A stretch of DNA of 64,000 nucleotides from Viridothelium virens (taxonomy: Eukaryota; Ascomycota; Dothideomycetes; Trypetheliales; Trypetheliaceae): positions 248,001-312,000 of the forward strand of contig ML991793.1 of the NCBI GenBank assembly GCA_010094025.1. The letters are read 5' to 3'. A program made the position numbers and the translations under genes. The notes under the pieces were generated by a model. That model was not told the DNA's origin and searched no databases. It saw nothing but the letters and a program-made list of their open reading frames with translations. Shown here piece after piece: positions 45,000 through 52,314 of the stretch; the stretch's first letter is position 1; each line of letters begins with the position of its first letter.

Positions 45000-47665
45000 C
45001 GACTCAGCAGCACACCATTACTCCCGCCGCTGCCTTTGCCATTTGCATATGGATGTGGTGGAAGCGAACTTCCATCATTAACCTTGGGCAGTTGCGATTG
45101 CACAGCGGAGGGCGGAGGCTTCGGTGGTAGGGATGCGGGTGCACCCCATTTTGCAATGGTGCTTTGAGGATTCTGAGCTGGAGGCAAGGAAGGGTTGCTA
45201 GACGTGGGCGAGCGACAGGAGGATTGAGGGGCCTGAAAGCTGGTATGAACTTGAGATGGTTGACGTTGGACCGTTCCATTGGACTGAGCAATCCGCGGGG
45301 AGCCAAAGGAAGCATTGGATTGGCTTGAGCTTTGACGCTGTACATTGTTGGCAGGCGTAAAGGCTGCAAGGTTGTTAAGCGAAGGTGAGCTCATTTGTGG
45401 CATCATGCCATAGGGCTGCGCGCTTGCGACCATCTGATGAGGAACAAATGATTGGCTCTGGGGGTTAAATTGCTGTCTGTTGAAGCTTCCAGGCACTGGA
45501 TGTTGGTTTTGGGGAGACTTTCCATTTGCCAACCCCTGAGGGAGCTGCCCGTACGGGTAAGAATTTTGAGATTGAGAGGCCTGAGGCACATAAGGAGTTT
45601 GACCAGGGTAGAATAATTGGCCAGATTGAACTGGGGTTTGATAGGGCACTTGCGACCACATGGTAGTCTGCTGCTGCTGAGACGTTGGTCGAGATATTTC
45701 CTGGAAAGTGTCTTGAAAGGCTGGGCCGTAATTCGATGCAGGTTGAGGAGAGTATCCGTTATGAGGCTGGAAGGACATCTGCTGCAAGGCAGAGTTCAGG
45801 TTGAAAGTATGGTCTGGTACGGGACCGTAAGATTGAGAATCTTGGCCATTGCTGTAGGTAGGGAACTGTTGACTCTGCCATGTGTTCTGCCCTACTGGAG
45901 CCTGTTGAACCATTGCGGGATATCCGGAACTGTACGAGAAAGACTGCAGATTGCCCGTTGGCGAAGACTGCTGTGACACAGTGTTATAGGTAGAATAAGC
46001 GGTGTAGGCAGAGCCGTCTCCAACGCCAAATCCATTCATTGGGAAGGGGGAGGGGTAGTATGGTTCGTACTGAGAGCGTAACTCAAATCCATCATCAGAG
46101 TTTTTCCGCTGTTTGTTCTTCCCTTTCTTCTTCCCATTGGCGGAGCTGGAGCGTGAATTGTCCTTCTCTTCACCTACGTTGGTCTTTTCAGCCACATCAT
46201 TTGCAGAATGGTCTGGACCAAAGATTCGCTCCTTGGCTTGCTTGTATGCAATCTCCTTTTCTTCTCGGGTTCTCGGTACTTTCGGTTTTGAGTCCTTTTC
46301 AGGCCCACTGTCGCCATCACCGTTGCTTGCAACCTTCAATAGATCTTCTGCTTTATGTCCGTTGTGGTTCCCGGTTTTCGAATTGCCAACATCACCACGA
46401 CGCATGATCTTGGGTGCCATCACGTTCGGTGGAGGCGTATTAGCAGAAGTCGAAGGATTGGACGGTCCTGTTAGTGGTCGAGGACTATATTTCATTAGTA
46501 CGATGTCTGTCCGTCAAATGTCTGAATCGCACATACATTCTGCAGAATGGCGTTCTATAGATCCGGACTGCATTTATCGAGCTATCTAGGGCATGTCCTA
46601 GTAAATAATAGTCTGCCAGACGATGAGCAAGCATTCTGTAAAAACCATTGCATTGCGGCAAGTCGAGTGAGCTCTCCCTGTTAAAGCCATCAGTAGCTGA
46701 AGATGCACCGTAGCTCCCTGATACGTACTGTTTATCCTTGACGAAATCAATAAAATCTTGCTCAAGCTTCATGACAAACAATCGATCTCGGGGAGATTCC
46801 ACAGCCTCCAGCAGTTTTTCGTCTGGGATTGGATCAACCGTCTCCGGAGGAGTTCCAACCAAAGTAGAAGACTGCAGTGGCAAGGGTTGCGATTGTACAA
46901 TGGAAGGATTGAAAAGCATTGGGGGTCCATTACTTTGACTTGGGGGTTGGGCCACTTTAACAACTGGTGGTCCTCGATTGGGTACTGGTCCCATAGCAGC
47001 AATCTCATGTAGTTGATCGTGAAAGGCACGAGTACCATGATCGGACCCGACTCTTGACCCAGGTGCATTTGAACTGGGGGGAGAGAAGACATCTTCCTCA
47101 TCAGTGGCTTTGACGCTAGCGCTGTCGTCAGGACGAAGGGATTCCTTTTCGTCTAATGCAAAAGTTGTACCAGAGGTCACACTTTTGCCATCCAGACTCG
47201 GAGGCTTAGCAGAGCTATCAGAAGAGAGCTGAGTGCTCCCATCATCACCATGAGCTGCTTTCAACAATCCTTCGGCTCGGCGCGGGCCCTCGGCACTCTT
47301 CGTGTCAGCTTTATGCTGCTGGTCCCTGGCCTGCAGGATTCCCACAGAAGTTGGAGGCGTATGGTTATCATTATTCGTAAGGTCTTTGCTATGGTGGTTC
47401 AATATAACGCTCGTGACGGGCGGCTTCTGAGAATCAGAATTAAGAGCGGGTCCCGAAGTATCCTGCTGTGCTGGTTTAGCCTCTGCCAAGTTCGTTGGCG
47501 GCTTTGTATTAGAAGTGGATTCCCTGGGTTTTGGAGGTACATAGGCAGAAGCTGCGACCTATTTTGCTGTTAGAAGTCGCGACAAATGAGCAGGCTGGAG
47601 AGCAGAGTAATTTTCACCTTTGCAAACGATGGCTTTGAAGATGTTTCCGTGGTTCTCGATGCCAT
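44996..47665 (-). CDS. R3H and SUZ domain RNA-binding protein
   Basis: Cytoplasmic RNA-binding protein of 852 residues. Exons 47665-47618, 47558-46537 and 46484-44996 with introns of 59 and 52 nt. The first exon codes only MASRTTETSSKPSFAK and is needed because the main frame has no ATG upstream of TTG at 47489. The N-terminal 270 residues are disordered. The R3H domain follows: SPRDRLFVMKLEQDFIDFV, then CNGFYRMLAHRLADYY (R-x3-H) and NAVRIYRTPFCRI. The SUZ motif comes soon after the second intron (APKIMRRGD and REEKEIAYKQAKERIFG). The C-terminal half is Gln/Ser/Pro/Tyr-rich, prion-like low complexity, typical of granule-associated RNA-binding proteins. Closest named relatives are Rbs1-type R3H-SUZ proteins. 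RNA targets unknown. Confidence 0.85.
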
Positions 47666-48910
47666 TGCAAAGACTGATTTCGTCACCAAGCACACGAGAT
47701 TACCGAGGGGGCGAGGTCCTGCCAACCAAGAACTCCGTGCCTGAAGTAGTGAAACGAAGACGAATGAATGTGGCGGTTGCAACTAGGCAGACCATTCAAC
47801 TGGGAGCTTGCTCAAGGAAAATGGTTAAGAGAATGGCCAGGAATCTGGACATGGTTGAGCGCCGACATGGATTGCGATGCTGATATTTCCTGATTCTTGC
47901 AAGGGCGCGCGTTGAGAGTGGTTTGCGCAAATGGCGAACAGGATTGATATATAACGGACTTCAGTGCAGATACAGCACAGGGTATTTTCCGAGTCCAACG
48001 GTGTGACAGGTGTGCTTGCTGCGGTGGAACTTGGGCAGCTGAAGTGCGCGAGTGCCGTCGGGGAGTGGGCTTGGGTTGCAGCAGAGACAAATGACGAGGC
48101 GGCCTGCAAAGACCGTTTGTCCCCAGTGGCATGAATGATCCCTTGCTCGGAGGATAGGTATTTCCGATGCGATAATTTCCAACCTCCTTGGTTCAGTGAT
48201 GTTTAAATTTCGTGCAATTCTGATTCGCACCAACCAGGGAATTCTCATTACTCAGGGTGACAGTCATGCGGAGCTGCTTGCACAGGTGCATTTCCCCGCC
48301 TCCTTATCCATCGCGGCGTATGGAAGTCAGGATCTTACTCTTTTCATACCTTAGTAAATGTGGCGATGATGGATTGAATTCGTTGGTCATGACATAAAGA
48401 GATATACCTTTCGTTAACTATGAAACATTTACGATGAGACATCTTTTCTACGACTCCATTCTCATGCTGAAATCTATCTGCCGCTCGACATTGGTTTACC
48501 TGACGCTTGATCGAGGGGATATTCACTTGCTCTGATATATTTTAGGTAGCTATACATCTTTTCTAAACCGTTCAACAGGGGTCAAAGGATACTTGTAAAT
48601 CGTAAATGCCCGTTGATTAATAAAGCCCAGTCATGCTACACTATCTAATAAGAAGAAATAAAAGTAAACGGCCTGCTGGTAGTCTCGTGATGCATTATTA
48701 GGAGACCCAGAGAGACAGGCAAAGGAGAAATGCTAGGCTGACTGCTGAGGGTCCCTGCAGAGGACATCGGGCCAGAACCTTTCTTTAACATCCATTGTGT
48801 TGATCTTCCGTCACAAGCCACTCGTACCTCGACACGCACTCATTTCCCTCGACGGGCCGCTATAATATAACCACCATCGTTTGCGAAACCCACCTGGATT
48901 CCAAGACAAA
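47666..48910. other. divergent promoter region between the R3H-SUZ and zinc-knuckle genes
   Basis: 1.25 kb without a credible gene; frames up to about 106 codons overlap on both strands and show no domain. Confidence 0.45.
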
Positions 48911-50042
48911 ATGCTCCGCGACCGTCGATATGGCGGTGCCAGCAAAGCGACTTCCTCAACTGTCTGCCAGAAATGTCTAAAACGAGATACGTCCATTTCT
49001 AGCTACACCCAGCCTAATTTATTAATACCCGAGTCCCAGCTAACATCCTCTCACGGCACTATAGCTATGAGTGCAAGGCAACCCCACAAGACCGTCCCTA
49101 TGCAGCGCGTCCGTCCCGCACACAGCAGCTTATGAATCCGAAACTTGTTCCACAGCTAACCAGCGATGTTCCGAATGAGCTCAACCGCAAGTAAGCTCAT
49201 CTAAGATCCGAATGTTCCAGAATACACACTTGTTTCTAATGCTACCATCACCCATGAAGAAACTGTATCTAATCACCTGATGTAGAATAGGCGTCGCAGA
49301 CGAACACCTTGCCCAGCTCGCTGCCTCTCGCGGCCGCAAACGCTTCCGTTCCCTCAATGATAACGACACCAGCATGAGCCCAGATCGCAAGCGCTCTCGT
49401 TCGCGCTCCGTTTCTACGTCCTCCACCACGTCCGTCGCCACCATATCGACTCGCTCCTCCCGCTCCCGCACACCTCGGCGCGACGTCGCAGGAGACGAAG
49501 ATCGCTACCTCATGTCGCAGCGCAGCGATGATCTCACCTTCCCCACTCGTGCCGTAGCTGCGCATCACAGCAAGCAAAGCGACAGGAAACGAAGACGGCG
49601 TTCGACGAGTTCGCATTCCTCTTCAGACGAAGACGACGAGGCGGATAGGTACAAAGGCACGCGAGAGTCCTCACGCGACCGAGAGCGGGAGCGAGACAGA
49701 AACACACGACGCCGACGGGCTTCGCGCAGCCCGACACGAAGGGGTCGGGCGAGGAGTCGCTCTAGGTCTAGAGGGAGACGGATGTCGAGCACAGAGGGCA
49801 GGGTGAAGGCGCGGATGGGCAGAAGAGATCCATACGGGGAAGGAGAGGGGCATAGAATCGGGCGTGGGGGTAGAGAGCGAAAGGATAGGGCAACAGGCGA
49901 ACGAGAAACGAAACACTTTGATGAAGAGAGTGCGAAGAAGCCTCGTCACAAATCCCAGCGGCAGCAAAGAAAGGAGCGCAGTCTGAGTCCGTACAGCAGA
50001 CGGCTGGCTTTGACGCAAGCGTTAGGCAGGGGAGGTTCATGA
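48911..50042 (+). CDS. ZCCHC10-type zinc-knuckle protein with Arg/Ser-rich tail
   Basis: Nuclear, probably RNA-associated protein of 322 residues. Exons 48911-48986, 49055-49190 and 49286-50042. The first intron (48987-49054, 68 nt) appears to be AT-AC: it begins ATACGT, has CTAAC at 49040-49044 and ends CTCAC. This choice gives CQKCLKRGHYSYEC, a perfect C-x2-C-x4-H-x4-C knuckle followed by the family block RPSRTQQLMNPKL. The best GT-AG alternative (48991-49064) is also in frame but yields CLKRDTYEC, which lacks the His and has wrong spacing. The second intron is GT-AG (95 nt). The C-terminal ~220 residues are rich in Arg/Ser and Arg/Glu (DRKRSRSRSVS, SSHSSSDEDDEAD, RARSRSRSRGRR), as in splicing-related proteins. 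The role is inferred from composition. Confidence 0.83.
48987..49054 (+). other. putative U2-type AT-AC intron
   Basis: 68-nt intron with 5' ATACGT, which is the common local donor GTACGT with its first base changed, a CTAAC branch site 11 nt from the 3' end, and a final AC. Splicing here restores the zinc knuckle of the host gene. Direct sequence support is the motif and frame; transcript proof is absent. Confidence 0.65.
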
Positions 50043-50283
50043 TAGCCTCGCTTAACCATTGCTTAGGAAATATGAAAGGTTTCAAAGAACATTATCTTGT
50101 ATTGCATGTAAGAATCGAGTCGCCCCGAGCGCCGCGCTTCCATTCGCAAGCCCCACATCGCCGTGCTGTCATACTCTTGTACAAATACACATCTCATAGT
50201 CGTACGCAGTTTGCGTCACAATAAAATAACACTCAATACGGCCTCATTCTCGCTCTTCAGCATTATTATTCCCCAGGGACTCC

Positions 50284-50635
50284 CTAGTAACGGTGGTGAC
50301 TTCCCCTCCCATCAGTTCCATGCATGCGCCTCGTTCCCGCAGCCTGACACATATTAGTCAATCAATGTATCTATGCAGACTGATAATAGAGTAGGCGCTG
50401 GGTAACTTACCTTCTTCCCAGGTCTCCTCGTCAACGAACCCTGCAGCTTCATCAGCGCGCCCGAGATCTTGTCGCCAAGCGTTGCGTGGCGCTTATGATG
50501 GTGCGCCGGGGCTCGAGCCGTGGTTGTAGTATGGTGATGAGCTGTGCCATGACGTCGACCACGGAGGCGAGACATAAGGGAGGGCCTATTGCGAGTTGTG
50601 GTGGTGGTACGGGTAGTGCGGGTGGTGGTGGTCAT
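50284..50635 (-). CDS. small His/Thr-rich protein, conserved fungal type
   Basis: 94-residue protein. Exons 50635-50411 and 50343-50284 with a 67-nt GT-AG intron. The N-terminus is Thr/Arg-rich (TTTTRTTRTTTTT), then HHHTTTTARAPAHHHKRH, then the conserved-looking core LGDKISGALMKLQGSLTRRP and, in exon 2, AAGTRRMHGTDGRGSHH. I recognise the GDKISGA..KL.GSLT..PG..AAGTRRM.GTDGRGS pattern as a family of short uncharacterised ascomycete proteins; no biochemical role is known to me. The splice is supported because the second exon completes the pattern. No signal peptide or membrane helix. Confidence 0.72.
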
Positions 50636-52314
50636 GTTGGCTTTTTTCTCTCTGGAGGTAACGCGTCTGAGAGTATTTATGCTCGTGTTTTGAGAGATTT
50701 AAAGCGTAGACGATCGTTCGAAAAATCTTATGAACAGGAGGGAGCTTTAGAATAGGGTCAAGGCGAGGTTTTTATTCTTGCTAGGTTCGAAGTTGTGACG
50801 CTTGAACCTGACCTGTCGCCATGAATCTTATCCCAGATACGTCATTTTGCCAAGCAACCAAGGGTCCCTCAACCTGTTTGCACCCCAGTCACCACCCTAA
50901 TTCTAGCCTAGAAGCATAATGATAAGTATGATGTAGCTCCTGTCCGTATGATTATTAGCCTTAGGCAGCTAGTAACAAATCTTGTCCAGTTGTGCAGAGG
51001 AAATACTCCTGCGTAGTCAGAGGCCACGGCTATGACGTGGAACTTTTCCTCTTCTCCTTTTCCCTTCTTTCTCTTCTACCTCTGCGTACACCACTTCACA
51101 CGTTAGTCAACCTCTCATCTCATTCAGGACTCTAGATGTAGCTGCTTTCGGAGTGTCGCAGGTACTGCAAAAAGTGAGAGGACTGGCCTACCATTCTTTA
51201 TATTCTCTTTCCAGTCATGATCACTTCATTACATTCATAAAACGAAGAGTACTATTCAGGCAAGAGATCTTAGAAAAGTCCCCATACAAGCCCATAGCGG
51301 TCACAGAACTTATCGATCCCTTAACATTGACAGAGTTTTGGTGCATCCAATATGAACCACATTTTCGGATCAATGTTGAGCTTGCGTCTGTGGCGTCGGA
51401 CTTGGATTGCCTTTGCTTCTTTTTTCCTATCTCTGAAACCGCATGTTGCAGCCCTCACTGCGTTTTCACCACACAAGCTACAAGCCAAATCTACACAGCC
51501 ACGATGCTAGCTCCATCGAACAACATCGATCCCACCATCTCAGGCAACATCGTAAAGGCTCTTGACATGGTTGAGTATGCAGTATCTACGGCGTGAGGCA
51601 CATTTACTAGTGATTAGAACCACTCTTTTCAAGGTGGCTATACGGACCACCAGGCGTGTTACTTGCAAGCTTCTTCGCCACGGGGAATCGAGCGCAAGTG
51701 ATAAGATGTCGATCGGAGTGGTAGATTTGATGTATGCTGGCAATGGATCTTTTTGGCACTCCGAGAAGAGTCAGAGGGTCTTCAGACGAGTCTACGCCCT
51801 CACATGAAGTCCAACTCATTATGCAAACTAGATTCATCCCAGACAATCTAACTGAAGCCTGCCTAATTTTCACCTTCACCAAGAGCTTGCACCACAGCAT
51901 AGCCACTGAATACCCGTGTTTTAGCAAGCGAACTCAAGCATCTACTTACGTGCCTAGGAGCTTTGACGCGGTCGCGACGGGTCTCTGCCCTCCACTACGA
52001 GCACGCCAACAACAATATCTGCATCCGTTTAGCATGAATGTATCAAATCACAAATCTCTTGCCCAAATCTATCTATTCATGACCGCGCTAGTTTTCCCGC
52101 GAAAGTCATGATTGGCTTTCCGGACAATTCTTCACAAGCTTGATTTTCTTCTGTTCTGAGCCTTTTTGTGAAGGTCGTCGAAGACGCATAAGCTAAATGG
52201 CAGTCGTGAACGATTGTCACTCTCATATCGCGCAACAAGTAGGAGGTAGCCTTTTCCTTTTCGACTCTTCTTTTCGTCCCTCCTGCATTCTGGAGCCATT
52301 GATATTCCAGTACG
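50636..52314. other. 1.7-kb stretch without a credible gene
   Basis: The longest frame is 147 codons (51153-51596), without a domain or good codon pattern. The right end holds the promoter of the first rhodopsin-domain gene. Confidence 0.45.

Follow-up and report, generated by a model that had tools for sequence, protein, structure and literature searches.

Two described kinds of intron come closest to the one reported here: the U12-type AT-AC introns and the U2-type AT-AC introns ('AT-AC type II'). In fungi, AT-AC ends account for 0.019% of annotated introns (Frey and Pucker, PMC7072748 Table 1), and an RNA-seq study of Trichoderma longibrachiatum, as excerpted from PMC4324775, places them at 69 of 14305 junctions. 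According to passages of PMC10639083 and PMC2846911, Ascomycota lack convincing minor introns, or lack U12 splicing, and a passage of PMC3033335 describes AT-AC introns in Caenorhabditis elegans, a host thought to be without U12 parts. Among the literature matches listed (titles and abstract starts, with few subscription journals), no earlier account turned up of an AT-AC intron in the gene considered below, or of a Pezizomycotina-wide one; in PMC3091305, which was set aside, the matching text uses 'AT-AC' as a domain name.

The intron analysed here resembles the U2-type kind in having AT-AC ends, a donor of U2 type and, as branch motif, a plain CTRAC. It differs in two respects: fungal AT-AC introns figure mostly as small counts per genome, as do those cited above, whereas here one intron seems to have been kept over four classes, and the likely outgroup has G at both ends. 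With the U12-type kind it shares the AT-AC ends, a short distance from the branch to the end and conservation of position; it differs in that its donor and branch motifs misfit and that a search of the genome did not find the minor snRNAs. The intron lies in a 64,000-nucleotide stretch of Viridothelium virens contig ML991793.1 (the whole of which is called the window below), in a gene which we take to be ZCCHC10-type, the family test used here being PF13917 (zf-CCHC_3) alone. As in ZCCHC10/PF13917 genes, a CCHC knuckle is followed by an RPYxxRPSRTQQLxNPKL stretch and an Arg/Ser-rich tail; what sets the gene apart is confined to the intron, the protein being ordinary. Its features are as follows:

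48911..50042, forward strand: zinc-knuckle gene with two introns, running from its ATG (48911) to its stop codon (50042)
48911..48986, forward strand: coding part of exon 1, whose last base, G, is the first of a Gly codon (phase 1)
48965..48967 and 48974..48976, forward strand: codons of Cys 1 and Cys 2, in exon 1
48987..49054, forward strand: AT-AC intron of 68 nt, placed by the splice-pair test, Pfam scores and read-through ORFs of orthologues
48987..48992, forward strand: 5' splice site ATACGT, which differs from the U2-type donor GTACGT by A in place of G1
48991..49064, forward strand: shadow GT-AG pair, GTCCAT...CACTATAG, in frame, removing the zinc-binding His
49040..49044, forward strand: branch-point motif CTAAC, with the predicted branch A at 49043, 11 nt before the last intron base
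49053..49054, forward strand: 3' splice site AC (CTCAC), the intron ending in CTCTCAC
49055..49190, forward strand: exon 2, with His (49057-49059), Cys 3 (49072-49074) and then the conserved RPYAARPSRTQQLMNPKL stretch
49191..49285, forward strand: second intron, an ordinary GT-AG intron (GTAAGC...GATGTAG), which yields an in-frame protein of 322 residues
49286..50042, forward strand: exon 3 and stop, encoding an Arg/Ser-rich low-complexity tail

Removal of both introns leaves a frame that is open over 322 residues, with the N-terminus MLRDRRYGGASKATSSTVCQKCLKRGHYSYECKATPQDRPYAARPSRTQQLMNPKL. The protein was matched once in the 30.7-Mb assembly, and its first 71 residues contain C-x2-C-x4-H-x4-C and score 71 bits against PF13917 (curated cut-off 27). 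The best match of the protein in a PDB search was a Gag polyprotein (E 0.096), and Rfam models gave zero matches to positions 47500-51500.

The joint that gives the family protein

Splice pairs with GT-AG, GC-AG, AT-AC, AT-AG or GT-AC ends were tested, with donors at 48930-49059 and acceptors up to 49149. Among the 89 open-frame pairs, 48987-49054 was alone in producing the CCHC knuckle, as the initial annotation had claimed; its account of the intron (coordinates, ATACGT...CTCAC, CTAAC whose branch A lies 11 nt ahead of the end, restored knuckle) was likewise confirmed in the sequence. The sole GT-AG pair retaining CQKCLKR is 48991-49064, which turns G-H-Y-S into D-T: the AT-AC joint scored 71 bits against zf-CCHC_3, this GT-AG joint 58.6 and the unspliced frame 14.5, in agreement with the earlier description of this rival as in frame yet destructive of the knuckle. 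As judged from the predicted products, this comparison shows that it takes the AT-AC joint to obtain the family protein.

The GT-AG pair shadows the AT-AC intron, which it overlaps together with ten exon bases. Every ATANGT donor includes a GT that starts four bases after its first, and TATAG within the Tyr-Ser codons of HYSYEC provides an in-frame acceptor in the window. Because the two ends are shifted by 4 and 10 nt, the frame is kept and G-H-Y-S is swapped for D-x. Products of this type are annotated in three of the 101 listed homologues whose knuckle is not intact, namely Cryomyces minteri P0001 and Penicillium macrosclerotiorum P0019 (both KRDIYEC) and Neofusicoccum parvum P0124 (KKDTYEC). 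As the initial annotation had anticipated, gene finders appear, from these sequences, to fall into the shadow joint, and the AT-AC intron would account for this error in the proteins annotated in relatives. Since the shadow joint drops a zinc ligand and leaves the frame unbroken, wrong proteins can enter databases unnoticed.

One further non-knuckle protein, P0017 of Botryosphaeria dothidea, fits no class. Its annotation lacks eight knuckle residues where P0200 has KCLKKGHYSYEC; 139 of the 141 residues that align agree between the two proteins, the exceptions being the joint residue and the last one, and residues 142-208 of P0017 have no good match in P0200. P0200, a 301-residue protein of source 'lgn' whose longest contig has 1499 bases, is continuous across both intron sites and was taken to be transcript-derived; set against P0017, it indirectly supports removal of the intron from the mature mRNA. 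The pair was found by BLASTP of non-knuckle proteins longer than 110 residues against 25 chosen spliced ORFs, and was the only one to reach at least 80% over 80 residues. An ungapped comparison, in which a read-through and a spliced protein from one species were sought, gave no identical pair (best 94%). P0222 and P0208, considered as such a pair, were dropped at 55% identity.

These data bear on two other readings of the joint. The fungus could use both joints as a regulated switch, the AT-AC joint giving a working knuckle and the shadow joint a His-less isoform. The GT within every ATANGT donor, the in-frame TATAG of the window and the three annotated relatives speak for such a switch, but the shadow AG is gone from four intron-bearing relatives that read D and R at the two ends of the intron (P0056, P0110, P0113 and P0131; see below): these have HYTYEC, the Thr codons of which allow no shadow AG. 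We consider the switch improbable. That 48991-49064 is simply the real intron, and the His-less knuckle (CQKCLKRDTYEC) the protein that is made, is very unlikely. This pair has canonical ends, is in frame and has its product annotated in the same three relatives; it nevertheless costs the protein a zinc ligand, the His, and lowers the zf-CCHC_3 score by 12.4 bits, its donor GTCCAT seems poor (by judgement, unscored), and both the four HYTYEC reads and the comparison of P0200, which has GHYSYEC, with P0017, annotated without it, argue against it as the true joint. The family as a whole points the same way. Our homologue set comprised 73 proteins from a first search, the best 120 of 744 from a second and the best 120 of 1149 from a third, that is, 261 distinct proteins, which are 90% cluster representatives and not independent lineages, so that the counts given here are not tree-based. 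The initial annotation had taken orthologues without the His-containing knuckle as the sign that it was wrong; an intact knuckle is present in 160 of the 261 homologues listed, contrary to a His-less reading. The 101 others are read, from their sequences, as unspliced, differently joined or partial.

Intron ends in relatives

Relatives were read from ORFs called on unspliced fungal DNA in a protein collection, the intron letters being deduced via codons. On the donor side, an intron starting with G gives residue G (GGN) and one starting with AT gives D (GAT, indistinguishable from GAC); as D stands for GAY, the second intron base in relatives is T or C. On the acceptor side, the residue before His is Gly for an intron ending in G, Arg (CGN) for a C end, and Ser (AGY) or Arg (AGR) for an A end, so that R (CGN or AGR) signals a last base C or A. 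The U12 donor ATATCCTT would translate as D-I-L. Orthologous DNA was also sought by pattern in viral contigs (101 matches) and in prokaryote genome contigs (19 matches), and no relative was among these matches.

In the window the intron has an AT start and an AC end, and the relatives agree within the ambiguity of the D and R codons. Among the 101 listed non-knuckle homologues, 66 have a readable residue after CQKCLK[R/K], which is D in 64 and G in two. The profile of the second search (744 matches) had D in every row and favours D matches. The first search did not; its query carried G at the joint, which makes it a fair donor sample, and all 13 readable donors among its 73 proteins were D. 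The residue before HYSYEC, readable in 95 of the matches listed, was R in 80, G in 12 and S in three; where both ends could be read (64 of the matches listed), the joint was D-R in 59, D-S in two, D-G in one and G-G in two. The initial annotation had expected orthologues to show GTACGT...AG at this place. This expectation failed: A1 was found in 64 of the 66 listed readable donors, and G only in two ORFs related to Pezizomycetes.

The neighbouring residues are consistent with the same ends. Among the matches listed, the residue before R could be encoded by an A-final codon in all 56 reads, as an AC end requires, the corresponding figures at the next six positions being 45, 37, 26, 53, 49 and 47 of 56. 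Two residues past the joint, a T-initial codon, as ATRNGT predicts, was possible in 51 of 62 two-ended reads (20-29 of 62 at the next six positions) and in 55 of all 66 readable donors. Residues -5/-4 before R fit CTRAC (LT, AD, AN, TD, TN or SD) in 48 of 57 of the matches listed; the branch A deduced for relatives lies 11-12 nt from the intron end, and in the window these two residues are AN. Within codon ambiguity, the orthologue donors read as ATATGT, ATAAGT, ATACGT or ATGAGT. We infer from these reads that, in most of the intron-bearing orthologues listed, the intron begins with A in a U2-like donor, ends in a base that is not G and sits at this position, across four classes of leotiomyceta. 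A related group of proteins, P0089-P0093, reads CQKCLKKDRT, which is at odds with a clean ATRNGT donor.

Named proteins with AT signs, some of them one-sided, come from Dothideo-, Eurotio-, Leotio- and Sordariomycetes among the matches listed; taxonomy was looked up for B. dothidea, C. minteri, Clarireedia, P. macrosclerotiorum, C. lupini, N. crassa, Tricharina, Morchella and Oleoguttula, and the class of every other genus is the one that we presume. The Dothideomycetes are represented by Lasiodiplodia theobromae P0222 (both sides), by B. dothidea P0017 (through P0200) and, through the shadow product and on the donor side only, by N. parvum P0124 and C. minteri P0001. The shadow product of P. 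macrosclerotiorum P0019 likewise gives the donor side only for Eurotiomycetes, and three both-sided reads (P0049, P0054 and P0088) have N-termini like those of named Aspergillus and Penicillium proteins. Among Leotiomycetes, Clarireedia jacksonii P0048 was read on the acceptor side only, and P0076 and others are both-sided reads akin to named Helotiales. Sordariomycetes were read on both sides in Colletotrichum (P0110, P0115), Coniochaeta (P0111), Trichoderma (P0122) and Hirsutella (P0121), and on the acceptor side only in Neurospora crassa (P0241). G at both ends, as a GT-AG intron would give, is read in two ORFs: P0153, 62% identical to Tricharina praecox, and P0174, 62% identical to Morchella sextelata, both species being Pezizomycetes. 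In the NCBI taxonomy the four AT classes fall within leotiomyceta and Pezizomycetes outside, so that one change near the leotiomyceta base is the simplest account.

Some reads complicate this picture. The 12 reads with G before His among the matches listed comprise one with a D donor (P0025), two with G donors and nine whose donor is unreadable. Most of these nine (P0058, P0059, P0065, P0165, P0167, P0170 and P0182) resemble the Pezizomycetes group, as judged from search position. P0060, from the dothideomycete Oleoguttula, and P0064 also read G before His with an unreadable donor, and may represent an AG end inside leotiomyceta: either the ends reverted to AG, or the N-termini come from a different joint. 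Finally, P0025 (L-G-H), P0075 (L-S-H) and P0074 (L-R-H) have G, A and C (or A), respectively, as the last intron base, and donor D in each. N-termini and intron text mark P0025 and P0075 as close relatives and P0074 as a looser one; AT-AG, AT-AA and AT-AC forms of one intron would thus apparently stand side by side, if the DNA confirms these reads. P0075 may be a decayed copy or contain a sequencing error, since CQKW replaces CQKC. P0119 and P0148 likewise read S-H.

Spliceosome type and motif screen

The donor ATACGT matches the U2 consensus apart from base 1 (ATRNGT), and is not ATATCC. This U2-type donor, together with the plain CTAAC, makes the major spliceosome the sensible agent, and the U2-type assignment of the initial annotation stands. 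Its companion statement, that the donor equals a local GTACGT type with G1 changed to A, held in part: the donor is U2-like but for base 1, but GTACGT was not shown to dominate among local donors, since it accounts for one of ten strict GT-AG matches in the window and the control itself gave 13.

A U12-type AT-AC intron cut by the minor spliceosome is even harder to defend than the shadow joint as the real intron. The AT-AC ends would suit it, as would the short distance from branch to end (11-12 nt, both in this intron and in relatives as deduced). The intron opens, however, with ATACGTCC, not ATATCCTT, and so departs from the donor [A/G]TATCCTT (consensus as given in a passage of PMC2846911); no D-I-L was read among the relatives listed; and AGCTAAC fits the branch consensus CCTTAAC, as quoted in part of PMC3033335, at 4 of 7 positions. 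Moreover, Rfam models for U11, U12, U4atac and U6atac found zero matches in the genome and U6 three; since control genomes matched none of these five families, this suggests but does not prove the absence of minor snRNAs from this genome. The U6 matches, at C116:32817-32916, C51:305-404 and C38:47563-47662, served as a positive control. The two surveys of Ascomycota cited at the outset also speak against a U12-type intron. Least credible of all is a pseudogene, or an assembly error at donor and acceptor, for which we found no supporting point: an assembly error would have to be two separate errors, similar ends recur in dozens of relatives, and the remaining frame is intact over 322 residues.

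Splice motifs alone are not beyond chance, whereas the protein match is. Indeed, a loose AT-AC pattern had 6 matches in the window versus 17 for its reversed control, and three strict AT-AC patterns had 31, 25 and 17 matches in the genome versus 155, 57 and 72 in reversed controls, the figures of 31 and 155 being those of the strict ATACGT pattern on both strands. The 73 strict matches lie at 70 places, 69 of which were examined (one at a contig start was left out), and 68 of these 69 offered a testable candidate intron. Twenty of the best 30 frames (18 loci) were judged by eye, without a family search. In this limited genome screen the known locus (L027) alone was convincing and no second convincing AT-AC intron was found; since the codon score discriminates poorly, placing the true locus itself low, the screen is no proof of uniqueness. 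Among the candidates rejected, L024 reads as plain coding sequence for an NSF-like ATPase; ordinary GT-AG introns seem to account for L029 and L073.

Origin and possible meaning of the intron

We conclude with high confidence, from comparison of sequences, that this is most probably a spliceosomal U2-type AT-AC intron in a single-copy zinc-knuckle gene, formed near the leotiomyceta base and kept since then, with losses. U1 and U6 would recognise ATACGT through positions +3 to +6, branching would occur at A49043, and in step 2 the pair of A1 and C-last would replace the usual contact of G1 and G-last. In yeast and mammalian work, A1 with C-last is able to substitute for the second-step contact between G1 and G-last. 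The change from GT-AG to AT-AC would have taken place near the leotiomyceta base and would not easily be undone, since each single change (giving GT-AC or AT-AG) should splice badly; one way out of the AT-AC state would be loss of the whole intron.

A bolder proposal, to which we give little credence, is that the AT-AC ends are kept by selection and not just by the difficulty of mutating back: splicing dependent on second-step fidelity, combined with the His-less shadow product, would then let the gene sense the major spliceosome and regulate itself, throughout leotiomyceta. Arg/Ser-rich tails are common to many splicing-associated proteins, and the RS-tailed zinc-knuckle protein encoded here may belong to a splicing-associated family. 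A passage of PMC10048706 lists human ZCCHC10 among the FRA10AC1 interactors implicated in pre-mRNA processing and files it under transcription regulation; this link makes self-regulation worth a test, and no more.

The U2-type AT-AC intron favoured above seems to have persisted at one position in four classes of a group that reportedly has no minor spliceosome. If so, it would offer a natural test of how the first and last bases of an intron make contact, and of what stops such introns from reverting, the material being the G-G state of the likely outgroup and the apparent AT-AC, AT-AA and AT-AG forms among relatives.

Lastly, the right knuckle is present in 97 of the 105 proteins that were new in the third search (best 120 of 1149), many of which are annotated; the AT-AC joint may already stand unremarked in RNA-guided annotations, or the intron may have been lost there. 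Three ORFs with an intact knuckle, P0027, P0028 and P0034, seem by eye to continue into intron 2 (PKYV...) and probably represent genomic DNA without the first intron.
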